Shown: positions 17,562-26,977 of the stretch, in pieces | Numbering within the stretch: the first letter of the stretch is position 1 | Layout of the letters: every line of letters begins with the position of its first letter | IMG/VR virus record: IMGVR_UViG_3300046804_000086 | Span: 1 to 27,127 of that record | Source of the DNA: a virus | Direction: 5' to 3' (one strand) | DNA length: 27,127 nt | Program-made: the position numbers and the translations under genes | Notes under the pieces: generated by a model | The model's database searches: none | Seen by the model: only the letters and a program-made list of their open reading frames with translations | What the model was told of the DNA's origin: nothing

Positions 17562-17804
17562 TTAATCTCCTAAACGCGATGCAGCGTCGCTAAATCCATT
17601 CTTAATCAGAAACTGCCGCACATTCATCCTTTCGGACTCGCGTGCTTCGTGCAGGTACTTCAGCAGCACCCGTTGGAGTTCATCTTTGTTCTGAACGCGA
17701 AGTATACGTGTCACCGCACGTTCAGCAATTTCTTCCGGGGTATAGCCCCGGTTTTCCGTCGTGAAGACCGATACGGTCCCGAGTTCAATGTTGGTACTCA
17801 TCAT
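17562..17804 (-). CDS. Small conserved phage protein, helical, 80 aa
   Basis: After MMSTNIELGTVSVFTTENRG the protein has a helix-rich part (TPEEIAERAVTRILRVQNK and ELQRVLLKYLHEARESERMN). I know proteins with this start (STNIELG, then V-TTENRG-TPEE) from phage structural regions; most I recall have a longer insert in the middle. No function is known to me. Two ATG codons stand in tandem at 17804 and 17801; the first gives an ATGA overlap with the adaptor gene stop, the second starts MSTNIE. Both are plausible. Confidence 0.7.
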   Translation of the reverse strand: MMSTNIELGTVSVFTTENRGYTPEEIAERAVTRILRVQNKDELQRVLLKYLHEARESERMNVRQFLIKNGFSDAASRLGD

Positions 17805-18439
17805 GTGACCGGAATCCTAACTTGCCCAGAACGGTACGCATCCTGACGATCCAAGCCATCGCCCAGACGTTTGAGAAGTGCAAGCGACTCCTGATACTTC
17901 TGGTCGTAGTACTGCATCATGTCGGCTTCGCCCTTGAGATAGGTATATGCCTCCCTGAGCGAGCCATATAGCAATACCGTCTCAAAGTTATCGCCCAGCC
18001 ACGAAGTCGAGTTCGTGACGATGGAGGGCGGGTAATAGTAGTAATGCAGTTCTGCCGTGTACGCCTGATCCGGGGTCGGCCCGAGGATCATCGAGGCGTT
18101 GTTCCAGATGGCGTAGTACTTGGGCTTGCCGTACGTGTTCGGCGGCGGGTACGAGGCACGGATGAAATTCACATCCTTGTTCAGCAGGTACTCGTACTCC
18201 TGCGTCGTTGGGTCAATCACCGCCAACGAGAACGTCGATAGCCAGTCAGACGGCAACGAGAAGTATTGGAAATTCTGCGTCATCGTGCCGGTGACGTTTT
18301 TACGAATCGCCGGAATCTGGACCGAGTTGTAAATCCGCTCTTCGGCCAACTGAACAAAAGTCGGGATATTGGCTACGAAGGACTGCTCCGTAGACTCACA
18401 GTAATCCTGAATTAGTGTTGACAGTTGGCTGTAATTCAC
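17801..18439 (-). CDS. Head-tail adaptor-like protein, 212 aa
   Basis: I place the start at GTG 18439-18437, which overlaps the upstream stop as GTGA and gives MNYSQLSTLIQDYCES, the start expected for this family; an in-frame TTG at 18448 would add only three residues. The N-terminal helices (to about 30) contain FVQLAEERIYN; then come a beta region (FQYFSLPSDWLSTFSLAV, KPKYYAIWNNASMILGPTPD, ELHYYYYPP) and a C-terminal helical bundle (LLYGSLREAYTYLKGEADMM to LLKRLGDGLD). This layout fits podovirus adaptor proteins that sit under the portal. No motif gives a finer name. Confidence 0.68.
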   Translation of the reverse strand: MNYSQLSTLIQDYCESTEQSFVANIPTFVQLAEERIYNSVQIPAIRKNVTGTMTQNFQYFSLPSDWLSTFSLAVIDPTTQEYEYLLNKDVNFIRASYPPPNTYGKPKYYAIWNNASMILGPTPDQAYTAELHYYYYPPSIVTNSTSWLGDNFETVLLYGSLREAYTYLKGEADMMQYYDQKYQESLALLKRLGDGLDRQDAYRSGQVRIPVT

Positions 18440-18672
18440 GGAGACCAACCCGAGCGAACTTTGACCTTGTTCTCAAGATTAATCTGAGACACAAACTTCT
18501 TGCCCTTGGTGGCAGCGCCAGCACCCTGCATGTCCATATGGGTCACGCCCACATTGACATCTTTTTCAGGATAGCCGTTCTGTCCCGTGGACTCGTTGTT
18601 CGGCTTCGGCTGGTTGTACTTCCCAATTGGGTCCATACTCCAGTCCATGAACGTGTAGTCAGGCTTACCCAT
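18436..18672 (-). CDS. Small hypothetical phage protein, 78 aa
   Basis: A mostly polar, probably disordered chain: MGKPDYTFMDWSMDPIGKYN, a Asn/Gly/Glu-rich middle, VTHMDMQGAGAATKGKKF (about 43-60) and a basic end. The MDMQGAGAATxGKKF segment is one I have seen in small proteins of related phages, next to other small basic proteins. Function is unknown. GAGG precedes the ATG by 8 bases and coincides with the end of the upstream gene; the stop overlaps the adaptor GTG. Its location among head and neck genes suggests a packaged or neck protein. Confidence 0.65.
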   Translation of the reverse strand: MGKPDYTFMDWSMDPIGKYNQPKPNNESTGQNGYPEKDVNVGVTHMDMQGAGAATKGKKFVSQINLENKVKVRSGWSP

Positions 18673-18677
18673 GTTGA

Positions 18678-18863
18678 TTACCTCGGGCCAGAAGAGCCGC
18701 GCATCGGGCTACGCTGATTCATGACTTTCGCCATGTTGCGCCCGTACTTTTTCATTTCGGAATTGGTCTTGCCGCCAGCGCGCATTTTCTTCACGCCTTT
18801 GTGCATACGGCTCTCGTGAGCCTTGACCTCTTCCCGTGCGATCTTTCGCATACCGTCTTTCAT
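18678..18863 (-). CDS. Small very basic helical protein, 61 aa
   Basis: The 61 residues contain a high share of Lys and Arg and few acids: MKDGMRKIAREEVKAHESRM, then KGVKKMRAGGKTNSEMKKYG and NMAKVMNQRSPMRGSSGPR. The first two thirds should be helical, the end flexible. AGGAG stands 6 bases before the ATG and overlaps the TAG stop of the zinc-ribbon gene. An internal Met5 would also work. I have seen the motif KAHESRMH-KGxKKMRAGGKTN in phage small proteins, without function. Charge and size suggest contact with DNA or RNA inside the particle, which is inference. Confidence 0.7.
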   Translation of the reverse strand: MKDGMRKIAREEVKAHESRMHKGVKKMRAGGKTNSEMKKYGRNMAKVMNQRSPMRGSSGPR

Positions 18864-18872
18864 CTCAATCTC

Positions 18873-19250
18873 CTAGGTCGTAACGACCGTTACTGTTCCT
18901 ACCTCACCAGCAGGAGCAAGTGTGTTTGGGGTTAGCGCCGCATCGAAGGAACTTGATCCCCCGACCGGGTTCCAACCCCACTGAATCATTCTACTACCGC
19001 CTGCACCGTTGTTACCTTCTTCAAAGTAACTCAAGTCGGGGCGTGGGTTCCGCAACGCCTGCGGATCGTCCACGGGATACAAACCAAGCGATAACTGCGG
19101 TTGATCCGGCTCCCAGCACTCCGGACATACCAAAATGTTGACGTTCTTGGTCTTGATGACCAGCGACTTCAACTGGCGAAGTTTGTACCGAAATCCACAT
19201 CGGTCGCACTCCGCAATCGCGTGTTTGCCACTTGCAAACCTGTTCGGCAT
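18873..19250 (-). CDS. Zinc-ribbon phage protein with a GxVGTVTV tail, 125 aa
   Basis: Two CxxC pairs (C15-C18 in CDRCGF and C42-C45 in CPEC) with about 23 residues between them make a zinc-ribbon-like knuckle at the N-terminus. The segment MPNRFASGKHAIAECDRCGF and PECWEPDQPQLSLGLYPVDD recurs in phages I know, near adaptor genes. After an Asn/Pro/Arg-rich linker (DPQALRNPRPD) there is a Trp/Gly segment (IQWGWNPVGG) and an end with GEVGTVTVV, the same core as the repeats of the 300-aa protein. A metal-stabilised neck or connector protein is possible; unproven. The start overlaps the upstream stop as TAATG. Confidence 0.72.
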   Translation of the reverse strand: MPNRFASGKHAIAECDRCGFRYKLRQLKSLVIKTKNVNILVCPECWEPDQPQLSLGLYPVDDPQALRNPRPDLSYFEEGNNGAGGSRMIQWGWNPVGGSSSFDAALTPNTLAPAGEVGTVTVVTT

Positions 19251-19975
19251 TAGTAGCCACCCAAGAAACTCTCACGTGGGACGAAGCGCACCGCAGCCTT
19301 TTCACGGTCTTCACCCGCCGCCAAGTCCCAAGCCTCGTCGTACTGGGCCTTCAGTATCGGGGTGCGGATGTCTGCGCCCGGTATCTTCATCGACAGCATA
19401 TAGGCCAGCCCCGCAACCATGCAGGGCAAGAAGCGGAACGGGATGTCCTGACCGTTTGAACCCACGCCGGGGTCAAACATACGGCGGAGCCGGGTGTAGA
19501 CGAGCGTCCACGTGGTCGTGTTATCAGGCAGCGGCCAGACCGTAAATTGAGGGTAGACCACCGCGCCTGCGGCGTTAGTGGCACCCGTACGACGATTGAT
19601 CCAAATCTGAATCGGACGGCCCGTCGCGTTTTTGTTCGGGATAGAAAGATACGTGCTGGACGAAATACGGGTGATGTTGATGTCTTGCTGGCTTGTACCC
19701 GACCCGGTGCGGATCACGTGGTCCAAGAGGTCTACCGTATCGACCGGCAAGTCATACGTCCCGACGTTATAGGTCAGCACCTTTGTGCCTTCCTCTAGCG
19801 TCCACAAGTTCACGCCACGATTGGCCCAGTCCATCAGGAGCAGGGCAAGACTGCGCCGCGAGGTACGGAAGTCGTAACCCGTGCGTAACTCAGCCCCGCA
19901 ACGCTCAAAGGCTTCCTCAATAATCGTATTGAGGTCGAGGTTAAAGTCGGTTGTGGCTGTAGTCTTATCGGCCAT
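19250..19975 (-). CDS. Second head-tail adaptor-like / tail tube A-like protein, 241 aa
   Basis: The order of elements matches the 212-aa adaptor: N-terminal helices (FNLDLNTIIEEAFERCG, about 11-27; RRSLALLLMDWANRGVNLWT, about 40-59), a beta part with YDLPVDTVDLLDHVIRTG (about 73-90), GRPIQIWINRRTG and PQFTVWPLPDNTTTWTLVYT, then a helical C-terminus (FLPCMVAGLAYMLSMKIPG; LKAQYDEAWDLAAGEDREKA). The family is a regular podovirus-type structural protein; it would lie between portal and tail. The ATG follows the upstream TAA directly (TAAATG). Sequence identity with the other adaptor is low, so the two are at most distant relatives. Confidence 0.68.
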   Translation of the reverse strand: MADKTTATTDFNLDLNTIIEEAFERCGAELRTGYDFRTSRRSLALLLMDWANRGVNLWTLEEGTKVLTYNVGTYDLPVDTVDLLDHVIRTGSGTSQQDINITRISSSTYLSIPNKNATGRPIQIWINRRTGATNAAGAVVYPQFTVWPLPDNTTTWTLVYTRLRRMFDPGVGSNGQDIPFRFLPCMVAGLAYMLSMKIPGADIRTPILKAQYDEAWDLAAGEDREKAAVRFVPRESFLGGY

Positions 19976-20152
19976 TTACTTCTTCAGCCCTTTTAAGGTC
20001 TGAGCGAGACGCGCACGTTGGCCCATCTTGCCCGGAGCCTTGGCGGCTTTGGCTAGTTTGGCAGCGGGAATCTTCTGCCCCGCTTTGACACCGAGGCTGC
20101 TACGTAGCGCACCGGGCTTCTTGATCGCCTTCTGAATCCACTTCTCAGCCAT
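19976..20152 (-). CDS. Tiny highly basic protein, 58 aa
   Basis: ATG 20152-20150 opens 58 codons that end TAA at 19976-19978, one base after the upstream TGA and directly before the adaptor ATG. It reads MAEKWIQKAIKKPGALRSSL, then LGVKAGQKIPAAKLAKAAKA and a basic end with GQRARLAQTLKGLKK. I count 16 Lys/Arg against one Glu. I recognise IKKPGALRxxLGVKxGxKIP as a recurrent small phage protein of unknown function. The Ala/Lys spacing resembles the DNA-binding tails of histone H1-like proteins, which suggests nucleic-acid contact; this is a hypothesis. Confidence 0.78.
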   Translation of the reverse strand: MAEKWIQKAIKKPGALRSSLGVKAGQKIPAAKLAKAAKAPGKMGQRARLAQTLKGLKK

Positions 20153-20153
20153 G

Positions 20154-20399
20154 TCACATCCCCTTCCGTCTGTACGGCCTTACTTTTTCTTTGACGCCTT
20201 TAGGCTGCGCGACAAATTGCTTACCTTGGGCTTTGCCTTTGCGCTTGGCGGCGGTGGTGCGGGCATAGTCAGCAGGGCTGAGAGCCTTGATCGCAGCCTC
20301 TGGAAGATACCTTTCACCCGTGTCAGAAGACCGTTTACCACTTTTTGTTCTCCACTTCTGGGCAGTCCAAGCCTTGAGTGACTGCTGCGGCGCTTTCAT
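20154..20399 (-). CDS. Small basic conserved protein, 81 aa
   Basis: I start at ATG 20399, which overlaps the upstream TGA as ATGA and has a GGGGG run about 8 bases before it; a longer in-frame start at 20465 would overlap the upstream gene by 70 bases. The protein reads MKAPQQSLKAWTAQKWRTKS, then TGERYLPEAAIKALSPADYA and TTAAKRKGKAQGKQFVAQPK. This combination (WTxQKWRTKSGK, GERYLPExAIKALS, KGKQFVxQPK) is a compact conserved family that I have seen in phages and some bacteria; the function is unknown. It is Lys/Arg-rich throughout, like its neighbours. Confidence 0.78.
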   Translation of the reverse strand: MKAPQQSLKAWTAQKWRTKSGKRSSDTGERYLPEAAIKALSPADYARTTAAKRKGKAQGKQFVAQPKGVKEKVRPYRRKGM

Positions 20400-20692
20400 C
20401 CGCGATAGCCCCCGCCTTTGGCCTTGTACTGCTTCGCCAGCAACTGCGCTTTTCTTGCGCTCCATTGTCCCGCCTTGGTACCCTGCACGGCCCGGCCCTT
20501 GATTGACTCAAAGAGCCGCTTACGCATACCGGGCTTCGTATAATTTCCCGCCTCGTTCACGCGGCTCTCGCCTCCCTTGGCGTAGGTTTTTATCGGTCTC
20601 CCAGTCCCAATTACGGGTTTCTCGTCCCCCCGCCGTTTAGCGCGGGGGACTTTTTTGGGATTGATATCACCCATGCCGCGAGAAGGCATCAT
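20396..20692 (-). CDS. Small basic conserved protein, 98 aa
   Basis: The N-terminus is MMPSRGMGDINPKKVPRAKR, basic and probably disordered. From about 44 to 98 comes a conserved unit with ESRVNEAGNYTKPGMRKRLF, GQWSARKAQLLAKQYKAKGG and final GYRG, which I recognise as a small domain recurring in phage and bacterial proteins without known function. The first ATG overlaps the upstream stop as TAATG; a second ATG follows immediately. A strong plus-strand hairpin with a T-run lies inside codons 12-23. High Lys/Arg content and packing with other basic genes suggest a shared role. Confidence 0.75.
   Translation of the reverse strand: MMPSRGMGDINPKKVPRAKRRGDEKPVIGTGRPIKTYAKGGESRVNEAGNYTKPGMRKRLFESIKGRAVQGTKAGQWSARKAQLLAKQYKAKGGGYRG
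20624..20656 (+). terminator. Intrinsic-terminator-like hairpin on the plus strand, inside a minus-strand gene
   Basis: Bases 624-630 (gtccccc) pair with 644-650 (gggggac), and after a one-base bulge cgc 631-633 pairs with gcg 640-642, leaving a six-base loop. Six T follow directly at 20651-20656. In plus orientation this has the full form of a rho-independent terminator. In the coding direction there is no T-run. The T-run corresponds to codons AAA AAA for two Lys of the 98-aa protein, so it may be a coding coincidence. Confidence 0.45.
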
Positions 20693-21117
20693 TAGACAAA
20701 CTTCCCTCGGGTCTTACCCTTCACCGCGCAGCCATCAGCACGCTTGGAGGCAGAGGAAACGGAGCCACCTTTTTTATAGCCACGTTTGGACTTCTCAGCC
20801 ATTTGCCGACGAGCCGCCGTTGCCAATACATCCAACTCTTTATCTTTGTCACTGAGGGTTTTTTTCCCAAATCTGGACATAAATTCTTCTAGAGTTGGGG
20901 CAAGAGCAGGTTCTTTTGCCATCTCTCTGCGATAGCGATCAAGAGTGCCTTGGTTTCTACCACGCCGAGGAGTACCTCGTTGTCGAGGACCGCCTACGTC
21001 GTAACCGTCTTGTTGCATAGTTTTTAGCGCCTGAAGATCGGCTTCAACGTCTGCGCTTCCGCCTTCAACAAACCGCTTCATGCCGTAACGAGGACCAAAT
21101 TTAGCCGCACGTTTCAT
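20692..21117 (-). CDS. Basic protein with KGG...KGKT tail, 141 aa
   Basis: I choose ATG 21117, which overlaps the upstream stop as TAATG and has GGAG seven bases before it; an ATG two codons earlier (21123) lies only one base from that GGAG. The chain begins MKRAAKFGPRYGMKRFVEGG, has an acidic/helical part (SADVEADLQALKTMQQDGYD), an Arg/Gly-rich linker (about 43-65), a helical segment (about 73-110) and a C-terminal tail with KKGGSV, RADGCAVKGKTRGKFV (115-141). The tail closely resembles that of the 140-aa neighbour. Function unknown. Confidence 0.72.
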   Translation of the reverse strand: MKRAAKFGPRYGMKRFVEGGSADVEADLQALKTMQQDGYDVGGPRQRGTPRRGRNQGTLDRYRREMAKEPALAPTLEEFMSRFGKKTLSDKDKELDVLATAARRQMAEKSKRGYKKGGSVSSASKRADGCAVKGKTRGKFV

Positions 21118-21539
21118 TAGCATTCTCCGCCGTAACGCATTTTGACCATCTTGCCCTTGGTCTTGCCCTTGCTGGCAATGCCGTCAGCCACGCGACGGAA
21201 CGAACCGCCAACCGAGCCGCCCTTCTTCATGCCAACCATCGCACGGCCCATTTTGTCAGCCGTACGGTTTTTCATAGCGCGACCGGCTTTGTCAGCCATC
21301 TCGCTCATCTCGTGCTTGATCATGGACTTCGGAGCGCCTTTCTTTTTCATGAAAGACACTTCCTTCTTCATCATCGCCTTAGACTCTTTCATCGTTCCTC
21401 CGGAACCAAATTTGCGGCCTTTGTCGGCCTCAACGTAATCACGACCCACAGATTGAGGAATGCCCAGACGTTTGGCTGCTTTGGGGTCATGAGCAACCAT
21501 CGCCATCAGACGGTGTTGTTTTGCGGATTTGCTAGGCAT
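21117..21539 (-). CDS. Basic Lys/Met-rich protein with KGG...KGKT tail, 140 aa
   Basis: The start at ATG 21539, one base after the upstream TGA, gives MPSKSAKQHRLMAMVAHDPK, the start expected for this phage family; a longer frame from 21605 would overlap the previous gene and add an unrelated sequence. IPQSVGRDYVEADKGRKF (27-44) belongs to the same conserved part. The middle is Met/Lys-rich helix (50-104) and the end is KKGGSV...RRVADGIASKGKTKGKMV (105-132). Lys/Arg strongly exceed Asp/Glu. I recognise the N-terminal domain as recurrent in phages but know no function. The stop overlaps the next gene as TAATG. Confidence 0.75.
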   Translation of the reverse strand: MPSKSAKQHRLMAMVAHDPKAAKRLGIPQSVGRDYVEADKGRKFGSGGTMKESKAMMKKEVSFMKKKGAPKSMIKHEMSEMADKAGRAMKNRTADKMGRAMVGMKKGGSVGGSFRRVADGIASKGKTKGKMVKMRYGGEC

Positions 21540-21540
21540 C

Positions 21541-21795
21541 TCAGCAGTTCCACGCCCGCAAGGATTTGTTGATACGGCTATTAGGATCATTAGCCGTCTT
21601 GGCACTCGTCAGTTTCTTCTTCATTCCGGTCATGCGAGCGCAGAATGATTTCTTACGAGAACCGCCCTCGGGCTGCGGGCGTTTTAGGCCCGGTTTCCCC
21701 GGATTAGCACGGTTGTAGGAAGCCCTGCCTTTTGCGTTGAGTCCGCCAGCAGGGTTTTTCCCTTCTTTCCGTTGCCAAGCAGGGGTCTTAGCCAT
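21541..21795 (-). CDS. Small basic conserved protein (AWQRKEGKNPxGGLNAKGR family), 84 aa
   Basis: It begins MAKTPAWQRKEGKNPAGGLN and continues AKGRASYNRANPGKPGLKRP, a pattern that I know from many phage and some bacterial small proteins. The C-terminal half has RKKSFCARMTGMKKKLTSAK and ends in RAWNC. I count 21 Lys/Arg and three Asp/Glu in 84 residues. The ATG lies within the end of the upstream gene (8-base overlap, 21788-21795). The family has no established function that I know; strong charge and low hydrophobicity favour nucleic-acid or capsid-inner-surface binding. Confidence 0.8.
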   Translation of the reverse strand: MAKTPAWQRKEGKNPAGGLNAKGRASYNRANPGKPGLKRPQPEGGSRKKSFCARMTGMKKKLTSAKTANDPNSRINKSLRAWNC

Positions 21796-22093
21796 AAATC
21801 ACCATCGTCGAGATAACGGCTGACGGGACGATGTAGATGCTGGTCTGGAAAAGCAGACCCTCACCGGGCAACAGCACGTAGTCCGGCGCAGTGGAACTTG
21901 CCTTGGTGTTCACTGCAATCTTAACCGGGCCGCTTGCCCCACCGTCATAGAACGTTACGGTGCCTGCGCCGCTATCTGGCACGATATAGATCGCTTTTAC
22001 GCGAGAACGGCCAATAACAAGGCTATTTTGATCCAGCAGGTCGCCAGCAGAAGTGGCGACCTTACTAGCAAGGACATCTGTTTGCATACCCAT
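21788..22093 (-). CDS. Small beta-rich virion protein, 101 aa
   Basis: The chain has a helical start (MGMQTDVLASKVATSAGDLL) and then regular strands: RVKAIYIVPDSGAGTVTFYD, GASGPVKIAVNTKASS, YVLLPGEGLLFQTSIYIVPS and AVISTMVIYG. Neutral and hydrophobic, it differs clearly from the basic proteins that follow. Such short all-beta proteins near the capsid gene are candidate head decoration or head-completion proteins. AGGAG at 22101-22105 is seven bases before ATG 22093; a second ATG two codons later is possible. The leader can fold into the long hairpin at 22104-22147. Confidence 0.7.
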   Translation of the reverse strand: MGMQTDVLASKVATSAGDLLDQNSLVIGRSRVKAIYIVPDSGAGTVTFYDGGASGPVKIAVNTKASSTAPDYVLLPGEGLLFQTSIYIVPSAVISTMVIYG

Positions 22094-22103
22094 CCTGAGT
22101 CTC

Positions 22104-22147
22104 CTGTAATGGATGAAGGGGGCTTATCGCCCCCCGTGGAATTACAG
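22104..22147 (-). other. Long imperfect RNA hairpin between two small virion genes
   Basis: Outer arms ctgtaat (22104-22110) and attacag (22141-22147) are exact inverse complements; inner arms gggggc (22118-22123) and gccccc (22129-22134) close a five-base loop. The outer arm contains the stop codon of the upstream gene and two bases of the AGGAG ribosome site of the downstream gene. No T-run follows on either strand, so a strong terminator is unlikely; an RNA stability or translation-control element is more fitting. Confidence 0.55.
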
Positions 22148-22381
22148 AGTCAGGCTGGTGTACAGCGGGATGTACTTGGTCGTTGAGCCGATCTTGACCG
22201 GAAGATAGCCAAGTTGGGTCGAACCGACCGTGCCAGACACCACGCTGCCCGTGGTCAGCACGCTGCTGCCAATCGTCAGGGTCGTGCAAAGAAGATTCGT
22301 GATAACCGCCGAATCGGCAGCAATTGGGCCTTCAAAGCCGTTGTCAGACTTAACCGGGCCACTGAACGTAGTACGAGCCAT
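22142..22381 (-). CDS. Small virion protein, 79 aa
   Basis: It starts MARTTFSGPVKSDNGFEGPI, a beginning I recognise from short phage structural proteins, and continues with Thr/Ser/Val-rich strands (LLCTTLTIGSSVLTTGSVVS, STQLGYLPVKIGSTTKYIPL). No charge bias and no motif for activity. It is the first phage structural gene after the homing endonuclease and so would be next to the capsid gene if the endonuclease were absent. GAGGT lies about eight bases before the ATG. A head decoration or head-tail interface role is possible. Confidence 0.68.
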   Translation of the reverse strand: MARTTFSGPVKSDNGFEGPIAADSAVITNLLCTTLTIGSSVLTTGSVVSGTVGSTQLGYLPVKIGSTTKYIPLYTSLTL

Positions 22382-22426: not shown

Positions 22427-23416
22427 TCAGTCGGGGCTGTCTGGCAAGCGGATTTTTCCCGATGACTCTGTATACGCCGTGATTTGGGGGGTGTCAACAA
22501 TCTTATTAGCCCTCCGTCTTTCACCCGCTGCGATCAACGCTCGGTCTTGGTCAGTCAGTTTTCTGAGGTCGCCATAACTGAACGTATAACCCAACAACTT
22601 CCCCTTGGAGATAGGTTTGCCTGACTTTAACGCCCGTCGCAGGGTAGGCATTTTGATGCCGTAGTGAAGTAGGACTTGAGTCAAAGAGGGGAACAAAATC
22701 CCGTCCGGCATCGCAAACACTGGACGGCTCATTTTTTCTCTAACCTCTTGGCTGAGTTTCTTGCCTTTCATGTGGCTGTAGTGCCCTGCGGCAGCGGCAG
22801 CGCGTATTTTTGCCATACCCTCCTCTGAAATCTTCCTAGGGGCTTTAGGCTTGCCCCGTTGGGCGTCACCAATCTTGCGGCGTACTTCTTCGGAAAGGGT
22901 TTGGCCGTATCGGTAGTGATCTTCTCCAGAGGCTATTTTTCCCTGTATAGCAGCGCGAATCTTGGCCCTAGTTTCTTCGCTATGTTTAGTACCAGCGCGA
23001 GGGTGGTTGTTAGGGTCAGCCGCGTAAAACTCGCGTAAAGACTGGGATATGGCAGCGCGTTCAGCCTCAGTTTTGGGCCTACCAAAGTTGGGATGGTCTT
23101 CTTTGGGTATGCCCCGCATCGGGGTATCTGAATAGCGGCTTTTGTTGTAGCAGTAATCTTTACCTACGTGTTCTGCAAGCCATCTGTCTTCTACGGCTTG
23201 CAGCATGTCTACAGATTCAACGATTTCTACAACTTCAAACTTGAAACAGTCCTCCCCATATTTGTTCCACGCTGCCTGAAGGTGTTTTGCGTGATGGCGA
23301 TTTTTACGAAGCCGGTTTCTATGGTTACGAAACCGTTCTCTCGTGTTGTTAGTACTCCCCACATAAAACTTTTGATTCGTGACATTACGAATCTTGTATA
23401 TCACCGGCTGCTTCAC
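22427..23416 (-). CDS. Free-standing GIY-YIG homing endonuclease with NUMOD3 repeats, 329 aa
   Basis: The N-terminal nuclease domain (1-92) shows V5-I6-Y7 and Y18-V19-G20 for GIY-YIG, then R28, H32, E76 and N91 at the spacing of the I-TevI active site. At least four NUMOD3-like DNA-binding motifs follow (about 108-127, 138-157, 168-188 and 214-231), of the form GxxxSEExRxKIxxA. Residues 232-282 resemble a NUMOD1 / helix-turn-helix unit (LFPSLTQVLLHYGIKMPTLR). It would cut a related phage genome lacking the gene and spread by repair. The start is GTG 23416-23414 with GGAG six bases upstream. No intron is evident around it. Confidence 0.92.
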   Translation of the reverse strand: MKQPVIYKIRNVTNQKFYVGSTNNTRERFRNHRNRLRKNRHHAKHLQAAWNKYGEDCFKFEVVEIVESVDMLQAVEDRWLAEHVGKDYCYNKSRYSDTPMRGIPKEDHPNFGRPKTEAERAAISQSLREFYAADPNNHPRAGTKHSEETRAKIRAAIQGKIASGEDHYRYGQTLSEEVRRKIGDAQRGKPKAPRKISEEGMAKIRAAAAAGHYSHMKGKKLSQEVREKMSRPVFAMPDGILFPSLTQVLLHYGIKMPTLRRALKSGKPISKGKLLGYTFSYGDLRKLTDQDRALIAAGERRRANKIVDTPQITAYTESSGKIRLPDSPD

Positions 23417-23547: not shown

Positions 23548-24456
23548 TCAGGACGAACCGGGCGAACCAAACATGCCCAATGGATCGCTCCATCCGAACG
23601 AGTAACGCTCGCGGCTCTTATACCGGACGTTGCCGGTATCGAAATCCCCGTCCATGGAGTTCTGAAGCGGCGTACGGACAAAGTGCTTCATGCCGTTCGG
23701 AACGTCGGTCGTAAGGAACCAAGCGTTCGTGTCAGTCAAGAAGTGGTTGACCGTATATCCGCCCGGAATCGAACCCATCGCCTTGAGGGCGTTGATGTCG
23801 TTGTCAGCGGTCGCAACACGGAGTTCCGTGTCGAGGAGTCGCTTGGCAGTGAACATCAATGCCGGGGGCACGATGAGTTTGTTGGGCTTTGCCGCGATCA
23901 GGAGTCCACGCTCGTCAGTCCAGCCAGCGATCTGAATGACAGCCGCCTCAAGCGAAGTTTCGTTGAGGTCAGAAGCCGTCAAACGGTTGCTGTTGGTACC
24001 ACCCGAGATCAGCGGATGCGAGGCCGAGAACAGCGGCTGACCGTCACCGCCCGTGTAGGACGATGAGAAGCCGTTGTTAAGGACCGAAGCCGCCTTGACC
24101 TGCTTCGTGTACGCCATCGCTCGGGCCAGCGCCTTTGTATAACGCTTGCTGAGTGAGTCGTACAGGTTGTCTTCAACCGCTTCTTCCGTGATGGAGAAGC
24201 CGAGAGCGATAGTCTCGTGGTTGTAACGAGCAGTCCACGCTTCCTGTGCGTTGTCATACGCAATCGCAGCACCTTCGGCCTTCACCGGAGCGGCGCTGAA
24301 ACCAGAAAGTTTGGTCTCCTCTTCAAAGGAACGCTCGGAAGTCTCAGTCTCGTAGATTTCCTTGTGTTCCTCACCATAGGTCTTGTACTCAAGGCCGAAC
24401 AGGGCGTTCAAACCCGGAAGGAGTTCCTTGAGTAATTGTGCACGTGAAATAGCCAT
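23548..24456 (-). CDS. Major capsid protein, Mu gpT-like, 302 aa
   Basis: The length equals that of Mu-like head subunit gpT (about 300 residues). Visible features are an N-terminal helix with FGLEYKTYGEEHKEIYETET (about 20-39), YNHETIALGFSITEEAVEDN (about 78-97), a helix with KALARAMAYTKQVKAASVLN, the loop QPLFSASHPL (about 139-148) typical for gpT-type proteins, LIVPPALMFTAKRLLDTELR and the last beta part RYSFGWSDPLGMFGSPG. An HK97 fold is expected. The position after scaffold and decoration genes and before a strong terminator supports the call. No protease or cleavage site is obvious. GGGGAG precedes the ATG by about nine bases. Confidence 0.85.
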   Translation of the reverse strand: MAISRAQLLKELLPGLNALFGLEYKTYGEEHKEIYETETSERSFEEETKLSGFSAAPVKAEGAAIAYDNAQEAWTARYNHETIALGFSITEEAVEDNLYDSLSKRYTKALARAMAYTKQVKAASVLNNGFSSSYTGGDGQPLFSASHPLISGGTNSNRLTASDLNETSLEAAVIQIAGWTDERGLLIAAKPNKLIVPPALMFTAKRLLDTELRVATADNDINALKAMGSIPGGYTVNHFLTDTNAWFLTTDVPNGMKHFVRTPLQNSMDGDFDTGNVRYKSRERYSFGWSDPLGMFGSPGSS

Positions 24457-24473: not shown

Positions 24474-25139
24474 TCAAGTGCCGAGCGGGTTGTAGTAAGC
24501 GTGACCACCCACGATCAGTCCCGATGCGCCCGTGGTGTACGGGGCATTGAACTTCACGATAACTTCGGGGTAGTACACGGTGCCGCTCGAAACAAACGCC
24601 GTGTCTTCAACGACATCAACGATACGCAACGGCAACGAACGGGTCGTCGCAACAGACGAGAGCAGAAGCCCACGCTGCGAGTCACCAGTCGTCGTGTTCA
24701 GCGCCTCGTCAACCAACGCAACGTTGGTGCCGATATCGCTATACACAAAGCCGTTCGTGGTCGAGACGTTCAACGAGGCCGAAACGCCCACAGCCTTGAA
24801 TAGGGTGTCCGGATCGTCAGCCACGTACGCAAGAATGTACGTGCCAGACTTTACCGAAGTGCCCGAAATCCAAGCCTGCGAGTAGGTCGGCTGACCCGTC
24901 ACAGAAGATACGAACGTGCAGCCCAAGAAAACGCCTGCAAAACCGCTATTGGCGGCAGCAGTCGTCACAGCGGCTACTTTCACGGTGCCGTCAGTGTCAA
25001 ACTCCAGCGGGTCACCGTAACCGATGCTCGCGGCACCGGAAGCGATTCGACGCTGACGAGTGGCACCGGCAAACACCTGCCCGCCGATCAAATTGACCGG
25101 CTTCAAGCCATACGGCTTGTCAACAGTAGGATATGCCAT
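24474..25139 (-). CDS. Putative capsid decoration / head protein, 221 aa
   Basis: Begins MAYPTVDKPYGLKPVNLIGG, then a beta-rich chain with Gly, Thr, Val and Ser throughout (ASIGYGDPLEFDTDGTVKVA, SGFAGVFLGCTFVSSV, SGTYILAYVADDPDTLFKAV) and an end with ASGLIVGGHAYYNPLGT. I recognise the GLKPVNLxGG...RxxRIASG...GDPLEFDTDG pattern as common directly upstream of capsid genes in environmental phages. It is probably displayed on or built into the head; a head-fibre or minor capsid role is the alternative. GGAG stands six bases before the ATG. Confidence 0.7.
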   Translation of the reverse strand: MAYPTVDKPYGLKPVNLIGGQVFAGATRQRRIASGAASIGYGDPLEFDTDGTVKVAAVTTAAANSGFAGVFLGCTFVSSVTGQPTYSQAWISGTSVKSGTYILAYVADDPDTLFKAVGVSASLNVSTTNGFVYSDIGTNVALVDEALNTTTGDSQRGLLLSSVATTRSLPLRIVDVVEDTAFVSSGTVYYPEVIVKFNAPYTTGASGLIVGGHAYYNPLGT

Positions 25140-25161: not shown

Positions 25162-25611
25162 TTATTTGCCCTTGCCAAACGAAGTGACAGATTTGCGCTC
25201 ACTAAAGAGCGGCATCCGCTCGTCGTTCAGCCTCATAAAGTTATTGTCTACAGACTGCACCTGAGCCTTGGCCTGCTCTGCGTAATACGCATCGCGCTGG
25301 TCCATCAACTCTTTCGGTGCCTTGCAGAGCAACAACCCACCGATTTCGATATTTCCCTTAAATCGGGAATTCGGATCGGCTTGCATCATCAGTTTGGGTT
25401 GGTCTTCAGCCTTCACAGGCTCCCAACCTTCCCGAAATTTTGCGGAGGTATTTGATGGGTCAGGTTGACCCATGATACTGGTCCGAATCCAGCGGAAAAC
25501 CCATCCATCCTGCGGCTCTGGTTCAGGGAGCGTCTGTGGGGGTTTCCACGCCATTTTACGTTGCGCTGATTCTCGGTTTTCGAGTTCACGTGCGAGTCTA
25601 TTCTCAGCCAT
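25162..25611 (-). CDS. Conserved phage head-region protein, 149 aa
   Basis: Basic helical N-terminus (MAENRLARELENRESAQRKM), then WVFRWIRTSIMGQPDPSNTS and EGWEPVKAEDQPKLMMQADP, GGLLLCKAPKELMDQRDAYY and a disordered end (ERKSVTSFGKGK). The WVFRWIR...D...N.....R..GWEPV and GGLxLCKxP pattern recurs between scaffold and capsid genes in related phages I know of, without assigned role. It may be a head assembly factor. The ATG follows the scaffold TAA after one base and uses GGAGG in the scaffold's last codons. Confidence 0.68.
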   Translation of the reverse strand: MAENRLARELENRESAQRKMAWKPPQTLPEPEPQDGWVFRWIRTSIMGQPDPSNTSAKFREGWEPVKAEDQPKLMMQADPNSRFKGNIEIGGLLLCKAPKELMDQRDAYYAEQAKAQVQSVDNNFMRLNDERMPLFSERKSVTSFGKGK

Positions 25612-25612
25612 T

Positions 25613-26590
25613 TTAGTTAGCCTCCAGTTTCATAAGTTCTTTTGCGTACTGTTCGTTGCTCAGACCCAGTTTTTTGGCGATAGCAACTTGAGTCGGTGTC
25701 AGGCGGACCTGACGCGGCGCGGTTCCCCGCGTTACCGGAGCCACTACATTGGCTGGTTTTGTGCGAGCGGGCTTTTCAGCCTCCCTCGTTTGAGGAGCGT
25801 CCCCATCTTCGTCATCAAACGCTTCCGGGTATCGCTTTCTCATAGTCTCGTCAACTCGGCGGTAGTAATCATCGCTACGCGGATCAACACCAGCCCGGAC
25901 TAATTTTTCGTGCAGGCCGAGCGCGAGGGCAGTCATCTCCTCGTCCACACCAAACCAAGTATTCTTTTGTTTCCAATTTTCGGCCTTTTGGTCGATAACT
26001 GGAGAGGAATACGCTGATGGTGTCGGTACCTGTTGATTTACTTGTACTCCTGTGTCCTGCTGTTGTAAAGCAGGCTGGAACCGGGCGAACTGTTGCAGTT
26101 TGAGTTTTGCATCCGTCAGCATTTCCTGAGCCGATGCAATCTGCTCGGCATCACCCGATTCATAAGCAGACTTTAGTTTATCTTTGGCTACGCTTAGATC
26201 GTTATTAGCCGCCTTGGTCATTTCATTAACAAAGGCGCGTTCACCGACCCCCAAACGCTGTTTTAGACGGCGGTTTTCCTCCATCTGGGCTTGGGCAAAA
26301 CGGTAGGTCTCTTCCCGCTCACGTGCGGCACGTTCTTTCTCGCGGCGCTCGTCATGCCACGCCTTCTTCATCTGAGAAAGGCGTTTCTTAACCTTCTCGG
26401 AATACTCCTCAAGGTCGTCGTTTTCGAGTTCGCTTACGACCTCTTTAGGCAGCGGCTTTTTATTCCGATCCTCTGGCGGGGTGTCGTCTTCAATTTTGAT
26501 TTCAATTTCGTTGTCAACTTCCTGTTTTGCCTCGGCTTTTTCTGCCTCAGCCTCGTCAGGAAATTTGTATTCTTCGCGTTCAACAGCCAT
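25613..26590 (-). CDS. Putative capsid scaffolding protein, 325 aa
   Basis: The first 60 residues are acidic and Glu/Lys/Asp-rich; from about 58 to 170 the chain is almost all charged helix (SEKVKKRLSQMKKAWHDERR, REKERAAREREETYRFAQAQ) and should form a coiled coil. Then follow a Gln/Pro linker, a helical part with YYRRVDETMRKRYPEAFDDE (about 238-257), a Pro/Arg-rich stretch and a C-terminal helical segment (LTPTQVAIAKKLGLSNEQYA) that could bind the capsid. Composition, length and place upstream of the capsid gene match scaffolds of tailed phages; no protease domain is seen. AGGAG lies seven bases before the ATG. Confidence 0.75.
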   Translation of the reverse strand: MAVEREEYKFPDEAEAEKAEAKQEVDNEIEIKIEDDTPPEDRNKKPLPKEVVSELENDDLEEYSEKVKKRLSQMKKAWHDERREKERAAREREETYRFAQAQMEENRRLKQRLGVGERAFVNEMTKAANNDLSVAKDKLKSAYESGDAEQIASAQEMLTDAKLKLQQFARFQPALQQQDTGVQVNQQVPTPSAYSSPVIDQKAENWKQKNTWFGVDEEMTALALGLHEKLVRAGVDPRSDDYYRRVDETMRKRYPEAFDDEDGDAPQTREAEKPARTKPANVVAPVTRGTAPRQVRLTPTQVAIAKKLGLSNEQYAKELMKLEAN

Positions 26591-26599
26591 GGTTTACTC

Positions 26600-26977
26600 C
26601 TATGCGCGACGGATTCCACGGGGGTCTTCGACCACCGCTTCCACCGTGTCGTCGTTGATGATGCGGAACTCCCGACCGTGGATGACCACGCGGGTGCCGG
26701 AATACGGACGCGTCAGAACAAAGTCACCTTCCTTGCACCATGCTCCGGTGGGGAAGCGTTCTTTGTCTGCATAGCAGAGATCGCCCATCTTGATAACGAA
26801 GAGAACGACCGTAGTCTGCTCTTCAATCCGTTTGGTGTCGTCTGACTTGATGATGCCGCCCTCAAACTCTTCTTCTACGTGCGGAACGGCACACAGCATC
26901 CGATAGCCTTTCGGCTCAGGCAGTAGTTTGGCCTTCGCAGCCTCTTCCTGTGTCTTCTCTACGTTGATGCTACTCAC
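26600..26977 (-). CDS. GroES-like co-chaperonin, 125 aa
   Basis: The chain has the GroES order: GYRMLCAVP (24-32) as first strand, the mobile-loop region EEEFEGGIIKSDDTKR (35-50) with the GGI-I element that contacts GroEL, then VVLFVIKMGDLCY, TGAWCKEGDFVLTRP and the final GTRVVIHGREFRIINDDTVE section that corresponds to the usual end of the fold. At 125 residues it is longer than bacterial GroES (about 97) because of a charged N-terminal extension. Phage versions, such as T4 gp31, adapt the host GroEL to capsid protein folding. The start is GTG 26977-26975, overlapping the upstream stop as GTGA. Confidence 0.85.
   Translation of the reverse strand: MSSINVEKTQEEAAKAKLLPEPKGYRMLCAVPHVEEEFEGGIIKSDDTKRIEEQTTVVLFVIKMGDLCYADKERFPTGAWCKEGDFVLTRPYSGTRVVIHGREFRIINDDTVEAVVEDPRGIRRA

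Follow-up and report, generated by a model that had tools for sequence, protein, structure and literature searches.

A C-terminal tag common to two of seven small basic proteins in the structural operon of a short-tailed phage

The virus record IMGVR_UViG_3300046804_000086, analysed here over its full 27,127 bases and referred to as the window, contains the structural operon of a short-tailed phage that is kin of Pag-Yong1, DSL-LC04 and HTVC023P. The operon lies on the minus strand and includes seven genes encoding small basic proteins, designated sb1 to sb7, followed by adaptor-like genes and then by tail genes. The new element in this analysis is a C-terminal tag that sb5 and sb6 have in common at the level of sequence. 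The genes and their parts are listed in order of transcription.

21541-21795, minus strand: sb7, 84 amino acids (aa), DUF6321 (PF19846; 70.6 bits against a Pfam cut-off of 28.5, model positions 1-72 of 72), with 21 basic and 3 acidic residues.
21117-21539, minus strand: sb6, 140 aa, with an N-terminal PSKS domain, a Met/Lys-rich middle and a C-terminal tag (phrog_16759, 1.8e-17).
21411-21539, minus strand: N-terminal domain of sb6, residues 1-43, recognized by PHROG and phage-record matches.
21120-21230, minus strand: C-terminal tag region of sb6, residues 104-140, a variant with extra residues after GKTKG.
20692-21117, minus strand: sb5, 141 aa, tagged, with a variable body similar to only three other tagged bodies.
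20695-20775, minus strand: C-terminal tag of sb5, the last 27 residues, a match to the tag expression.
20396-20692, minus strand: sb4, 98 aa, the C-terminal half of which is phrog_17747; it resembles the N-terminal half of a DUF5872-type protein and is fused to sb3 in other loci.
20154-20399, minus strand: sb3, 81 aa, resembling the C-terminal half of a DUF5872-type protein (phrog_14910, 2.7e-32).
19976-20152, minus strand: sb2, 58 aa, the most basic of the seven (16:1), with weak PHROG matches and present in 7 of the 23 spanning relatives described below.
18678-18863, minus strand: sb1, 61 aa, basic, two genes away from the other six and present in 23 of the 23 spanning loci.

The C-terminal end of sb5 reads KKGGSVSSASKRADGCAVKGKTRGKFV and that of sb6 MKKGGSVGGSFRRVADGIASKGKTKGKMVKMRYGGEC. 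An expression describing the tag was searched in 267 loci, some contigs being present twice, and matched 322 open reading frames (ORFs) in 179 of the loci, with 320 of the 322 on the operon strand and 291 having the tag no more than 12 residues from the C-terminus. Removal of identical proteins and of those with the tag far from the end left 261 distinct tagged ORFs, in 201 of which the chain ends exactly three residues past GKTxG. The G, K, T and G of the core are invariant but are demanded by the search expression itself; preferences in the flanks, such as SASxRADG and two hydrophobic residues at the very end, are not fully demanded by it. The number of tagged proteins per operon in the relatives ranges from 0 to 4, and some DUF6321 proteins are tagged too (loci L041, L126, L331, L337 and others).

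The location of the tag was evaluated in 12 virus records of 47-67 kb, in which the tag query gave 31 matches, represented in 12 of 12 records and grouped in one place in each. All 28 matches in the 11 records with both anchors fall between the capsid and adaptor genes, an interval comprising 7.1% of the bases; the three matches left out of this count, in L045, lie at the other contig end and fit only if the contig is circular. An independent scan of viral contigs by tag DNA revealed at least 80 loci, of which 78 of the 80 listed are in the same structural operon and the other two are fragments of 1.1 and 1.4 kb. Of the 85 ORFs among the matches listed that contain the exact core, 78 terminate three residues beyond it. 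Linkage and gene order (below), the tag, its C-terminal position and its confinement, within the records searched, to this operon are features read from the sequences themselves, as is the turnover of the tagged bodies. A tblastn search of phage isolates with the 27-aa tag gave no match, a negative that reflects the sensitivity of short queries, since a 308-aa protein between the capsid and adaptor genes of the cultured phage Pag-Yong1 (L002:10650-11576) ends in a divergent tag recognized by eye. No description of the tag was found in the literature searched on tags, DUF6321 and Pag-Yong1, and no wider claim is made.

The bodies preceding the tag are diverse. The 252 tagged bodies of at least 35 residues fell into 74 single-linkage blastp clusters, with sizes of 98, 29, 13, 11 and downward, and of the 72 loci that have at least two such bodies, 48 have each of them in a different cluster. 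In an alignment of 75 tagged proteins, comprised of the 74 cluster representatives and sb5 of the window (L154:61-723 was omitted because its start looked wrong), conserved positions were found almost only in the tag. No family match at E <0.1 was obtained for sb5 against Pfam and PHROG, and a scan of the 75 proteins against the same collections revealed DUF6321 in one and the sb6 N-terminal domain in one. Four weak single Pfam matches (the best 0.00027, to Spo0A_C) and one weak PHROG match were considered as cargo domains and not trusted. The median charge of the 252 bodies was +0.062 per residue, near neutral. Since the tagged bodies in relatives are variable and near neutral, the comparison suggests that sorting, rather than charge, would be the common feature of sb5 and sb6.

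Replacement of the tagged genes is evident in L012, the closely related operon of which retains the capsid protein at 97% identity, the product of 21788-22093 at 100%, sb7 at 99%, sb4 at 97% and sb3 at 94%. The slot contains three tagged ORFs of 77, 85 and 163 aa replacing the two of the window, the bodies of which have best local identities to the body of sb5 of 36% over 11, 30% over 40 and 30% over 90 residues. At the DNA level 20147-20757 and 21540-22289 align at 87% with only patches between, namely 21310-21392 (part of sb6) and the tag DNA at 21113-21188 and 20692-20775. Two tagged genes of L015 each match a different part of sb5 (77% over 30 residues and 80% over 20 residues), as if the sb5 of the window were a join of both and genes were shuffled by pieces.

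The initial annotation had described the seven as a coupled cluster of basic proteins placed between head and tail genes, mostly without hydrophobic cores and possibly packaged as nucleic-acid-binding proteins. All seven frames are present on the minus strand with stop codons where claimed, and the counts of 16 K+R versus 1 D+E in sb2 and 21 versus 3 in sb7 are right. The net charges, +0.12 to +0.26 per residue, are the seven highest of the 36 listed genes of the window, the next being that of a GIY-YIG endonuclease (+0.08). The coupling holds for the six adjacent genes, which run end to end with junctions, in transcription order, of -1, -1, -4, +1 and +1/0 nucleotides (nt) around; the range of -4 to +1 nt indicates that it is real. 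The exception is sb1, which lies apart behind two neutral genes (19250-19975 and 18873-19250). Since opposite-strand ORFs in the window can look Arg-rich, a basic composition was not accepted by itself as evidence for a gene, and conservation was used together with the ratio of nonsynonymous to synonymous substitutions (dN/dS) or polymorphisms (pN/pS). The median dN/dS was 0.197 for sb1, 0.097 for sb2, 0.112 for sb3 and 0.118 for sb4, and the median pN/pS was 0.136 for sb7, 0.337 for sb6 and 0.163 for the capsid protein. By these ratios sb1, sb2, sb3, sb4, sb6 and sb7 are true genes. The pN/pS of 0.434 for sb5 is from short alignments, the best four comparisons covering 30-37 codons, because its variable body aligns over few codons.

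The basic character persists in relatives, with a mean charge per residue of +0.124 for 722 homologous ORFs between the capsid and adaptor genes versus +0.012 for 902 outside (103 loci), although the 722 are homologues of window genes including the seven and the comparison shows persistence rather than independent proof. The description of the proteins as lacking hydrophobic cores was overstated, since many W, F, Y, L and C residues are invariant in sb3 and sb7 and both proteins gave helical AlphaFold2 models of moderate confidence, with a predicted local distance difference test (pLDDT) score of 79.8 and a predicted template modelling (pTM) score of 0.61 for sb3, and 77.9 and 0.41 for sb7. 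No histone-, HU-, protamine-like or other DNA-binding family was matched among the basic proteins in Pfam or NCBIfam. The results indicate that the seven are not one class of condensing protein.

The remainder of the operon, in which no tRNA gene was found over the 27,127 bases of the window, is as follows.

26600-26977, minus strand: GroES-like co-chaperonin, by position, composition and annotated relatives; it lies upstream of the scaffold-like gene and has counterparts in Pag-Yong1, DSL-LC04, HTVC023P, CRP-901 and QDWS535.
25613-26590, minus strand: scaffold-like charged protein, by position, composition and annotated relatives.
25162-25611, minus strand: operon gene after the scaffold-like gene.
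24474-25139, minus strand: operon gene directly before the capsid gene.
23548-24456, minus strand: major capsid protein, Mu gpT-like (phrog_371, 8.2e-24), the upstream boundary.
22427-23416, minus strand: GIY-YIG homing endonuclease by PHROG search, its gene an insertion that separates the capsid gene from the structural gene following it.
22142-22381, minus strand: operon gene.
21788-22093, minus strand: conserved neutral gene directly upstream of sb7, with homologues in 156 of a set of 240 sequences that includes the window.
19250-19975, minus strand: head-tail adaptor-like gene, the downstream boundary of the variable interval; the DSL-LC04 homologue is annotated as a Pam1 adaptor protein.
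18873-19250, minus strand: neutral gene between sb1 and 19250-19975.
17801-18448, minus strand: second adaptor-like gene (phrog_2941, 2.9e-29; PDB adaptor 7z47, E 0.00038).

Identity of the capsid protein to its counterparts is 74% in Pag-Yong1, 66% in DSL-LC04, 64% in HTVC023P and 55% in CRP-901, and 24 of 50,697 phage records match it. Searches of the PDB with the capsid protein and the products of 19250-19975, 21788-22093 and 24474-25139 gave no match.

Conservation of the arrangement was evaluated in the best 80 of at least 600 loci by capsid similarity, which are close relatives because they were picked on that basis. The capsid, 19250-type and 17801-type genes are all spanned in 23 of the 80. 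Homologues of sb7, sb4 and sb1 are each present in 23 of these 23, sb3 in 17 and sb2 in 7; a tagged ORF is present in 20 and an sb6-type N-terminal domain, detected with a loose expression, in 10. The order capsid, sb7, sb4, sb3, adaptor, sb1, 17801-type gene is kept in 17 of the 17 loci where all four basic genes are present. The placement of a linked late set among head genes, as initially described, is borne out by this co-occurrence and order, and the neighbourhood comparison revealed linkage and order kept across phages rather than scattered homologues.

The pair sb4-sb3 is also linked in more distant phages. Fifteen isolate records match sb4 and 19 match sb3, all 15 being among the 19; in 13 of the 15 the genes are on one strand with the sb4-type gene upstream and within 0.5 kb, and the remaining two are copies of HMO-2011 with the genes 1.8 kb apart. 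The pair lies in late regions, adjoining the large terminase gene in MEP402, among large late genes in HTVC103P and near lysozyme and terminase in HMO-2011. In L266, L276, L279 and others the two homologues are a single protein, and the fused proteins of L266 and L276 align to DUF5872 (PF19197) over most of its length under the cut-off (L266, 26.4 bits versus 27.5). The separate DSL-LC04 halves scored 20.1 and 24.1 bits against the same family and one HTVC023P half aligned weakly, while sb3 and sb4 singly gave no match to DUF5872 in Pfam, the curated cut-off not being reached. Since the pair is linked in isolates and fused elsewhere and its halves align to DUF5872, the two products most likely act as one unit. 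The name DUF5872 appears in a report on an algal giant virus genome (PMC12085832). In sb3, 25 of 81 positions are invariant among 28 sequences. The same phage structural operon is present on several GTDB contigs that have sb3 homologues (L253-L279) and were assigned to bacterial or archaeal bins, for example L257, L261, L267 and L276. Homologues of sb2 in L012:5212-5466, L110:3561-3848 and L153:1133-1414 have at the N-terminus a stretch resembling an EF-hand or dockerin (FPDLTGDGKVT..DVLKGRG). In L312, L316 and L320 DUF6321 is fused to the module found at the N-terminus of sb4 (M.ASRGMG.I.P.KMP), so that sb4 and sb7 share exchangeable parts.

By the curated cut-off sb7 is a full member of DUF6321, a family for which the literature search found no paper with that name. 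It matches 542 phage records, 379 of them named Synechococcus phages, and differs from many of its relatives in that DUF6321 is there the C-terminal domain of proteins of very different length, whereas sb7 stands alone. The gene sits between the scaffold and capsid genes in S-CBP4 and between the small and large terminase genes in P-TIM40 and S-SZBM1. An annotator's label of 'structural protein' for T4-GC0119 in S-P4 was not used as evidence.

The N-terminal extensions of DUF6321 proteins were examined in loci fetched with the S-SZBM1 protein (80 of at least 583 relatives). A start resembling MKTFxQF was found in 11 of 24 DUF6321 ORFs with an N-terminal extension versus 9 of 692 other ORFs. 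In distinct sequences the counts were 10 of 22 versus 8 of 649 (Fisher P 5e-12, a value that overstates independence since the sequences are related); the 22 exclude ORFs in which the domain lies before residue 10 or beyond residue 270, as well as those whose N-terminus is the RASRGMG module or one similar long start. At the letter level the peptide resembles the capsid targeting sequence (CTS) of phage T4. The CTS-like starts, found on DUF6321 proteins of T4-like phages, give indirect support to a head location. The gene right after DUF6321 also starts CTS-like (MKSF.QFLSES..I.GDFNG and similar) in L280, L285, L293, L295, L297, L299, L301 and L309 and is a candidate for a further internal head protein. 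Near the DUF6321 gene of S-SZBM1, S-SZBM1_194 (L246:502-2625) carries a SAM lyase domain at its C-terminus (PF23780, above cut-off) and gives a weak match to DUF3008 at its N-terminus.

The N-terminus of sb6 matches the jumbo-phage virion-protein families phrog_22033 and phrog_25121 over the first 42-58 residues only, so that they have a domain in common but are not the same protein. The whole-protein query matched 69 phage records in its first part only, including phiKZ PHIKZ165.1 (67% over 43 aa), and the domain alone with a looser limit matched 108. The domain stands alone in BUCT555, between terminase-side and capsid genes, and forms the N-terminus of PBECO4 gp454, a 29.07-kDa protein annotated as a virion structural protein, the gene of which adjoins those for a 60.10-kDa protein and topoisomerase. 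Mass spectrometry of virions of phAPEC6, a jumbo phage of the PBECO4 kind, is reported to have identified gp161c (28.98 kDa) and gp162c (60.05 kDa), with the topoisomerase subunit gp159c beside them (PMC7247149). By mass and gene neighbours gp161c would correspond to PBECO4 gp454, so that a protein with the sb6 domain is apparently present in phAPEC6 virions; the support for a head location is indirect.

From these results we infer presence in the virion, a function for the tag, DNA binding and delivery, and we hold with moderate confidence that this short-tailed phage has a head-internal module made up of these proteins, in which the tag loads variable cargo. The conserved basic proteins (DUF6321, the two DUF5872-like halves and the 58- and 61-aa proteins) would be made late with the capsid, enter the head and bind the packaged DNA or the inner shell. 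The shared C-terminal tag would load sb5 and sb6 into the head through recognition by one of the conserved basic proteins, the scaffold or the inner shell. It would work like the CTS of T4, as one constant address on changing bodies, and the variable bodies would probably leave with the DNA into the host, where they might act, for example, against host defences.

The CTS peptide of T4 is cut off on maturation. The likeness to the tag lies in one constant short peptide on diverse, changing small proteins encoded among head genes, and the diverse bodies behind a constant peptide are found here as well (the 252 bodies and 74 clusters above). The conserved CTS is described as directing diverse internal proteins into the T4 head (PMC3012670), and such proteins are described as injected (PMC9391042). 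The differences are that the CTS is an N-terminal packaging signal (PMC9024508) whereas the tag is C-terminal and usually ends three residues after GKTxG, that the phage here is short-tailed, and that the tag is known from sequence alone. The window proteins are without a shared N-terminal targeting peptide of the T4 type, which was seen only in DUF6321 relatives from other phages, and the set was not filed as a T4 internal-protein system because this defining peptide is lacking. In phage P1 a short terminal signal suffices to bring DarB into the capsid (PMC9024508); the signal is N-terminal with no consensus among Dar proteins, whereas the tag has a strong C-terminal consensus. Encapsulin cargo-loading peptides are C-terminal loading tags for an HK97-type shell, an analogy with the tag of position only.

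Several results weigh against the head-internal module. Three of the 23 spanning loci are without a tagged ORF, so that the tag is not indispensable. In the largest single-linkage cluster sb6-type bodies stand together with others, and pieces are common to some bodies, for which reason 'unrelated' bodies is an approximate description. When all closed DUF6321 ORFs are counted, CTS-like starts occur in 10 of 65 (P 5e-7, likewise overstating independence) versus the 10 of 22 above; most of the background matches are one gene family next door to DUF6321, and such starts are absent from the window proteins and from the longer DUF6321 fusions. PBECO4 gp454 is acidic (isoelectric point 5.5), and its correspondence with the phAPEC6 protein would follow from mass and gene order. 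The sb3 and sb7 models gave no Foldseek match on the PDB at E <= 0.001, and profile searches of the PDB with the two proteins matched no chain. The list of 30 proteins reported for S-SZBM1 virions does not contain the DUF6321 protein SSZBM1_192 (PMC9146016); its absence counts against the reading, though small K/R-rich proteins are easily missed. The S-CREM2 virion proteome (PMC10665884) says nothing on the matter, since a search of 30.8 kb of S-CREM2 sequence revealed no homologue of any of the seven.

The alternatives have to account for the same results. That all seven are packaged nucleic-acid-binding proteins acting by charge, which would condense or neutralize the genome or coat the inner shell, is in agreement with their having the seven highest net charges, with the late head position and conserved linkage, and with the reported contact of lysines of T4 head internal proteins with packaged DNA (PMC3012670). 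We regard it as unlikely because two of the seven are tagged and tagged bodies in relatives are near neutral, because the residue-specific conservation of sb3 and sb7 exceeds what charge needs, and because no DNA-binding family was matched, nor any fold for sb3 or sb7. What stands of the initial proposal of a packaged nucleic-acid-binding set is the linked late head set; the single condensing class does not, with sb5 and sb6 being carriers of a tag. It is also rather improbable that these are non-virion late proteins, the basic ones acting in the infected cell as assembly chaperones or as regulators of late translation or packaging and the tag being an assembly or interaction motif not leading into the particle. 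The proximity of DUF6321 to terminase genes in several phages, the position of the sb4-sb3 pair in MEP402 and the absence of SSZBM1_192 from the S-SZBM1 virion list (PMC9146016) are in its favour, and against it are the CTS-like starts on DUF6321 proteins of T4-like phages and the sb6-domain protein apparently in phAPEC6 virions (PMC7247149). That the tag is mainly a recombination device, with its DNA serving as short homologies for exchange of small genes and the peptide having little function, would explain the aligned tag DNA patches in the slot of L012 and the apparent join in sb5 but is very improbable, since mere DNA homology would leave reading frame and terminus free, whereas the peptide stands three residues from the end of the chain in 201 of the 261 distinct ORFs, with invariant G, K and T columns, and in 78 of the 85 ORFs of the second scan.

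If the head-internal module is real, the tag would offer a compact C-terminal means of directing proteins into a phage head, and DUF6321, so far just a numbered family, would take its place among head proteins. Held more tentatively, it is possible that short-tailed aquatic phages of a widespread lineage use a C-terminal capsid-loading code, comprised of a tag of approximately 20-27 residues, a swap slot between the capsid and adaptor genes, exchangeable small proteins, and conserved basic proteins as docking or DNA-binding partners, by which each phage would deliver its own effector set with the genome. The tag would then be a simple sequence rule for finding the proteins that phages of this group carry into cells, and the tagged proteins, nearly all of which are without known relatives, would be a natural place to seek anti-defence proteins.

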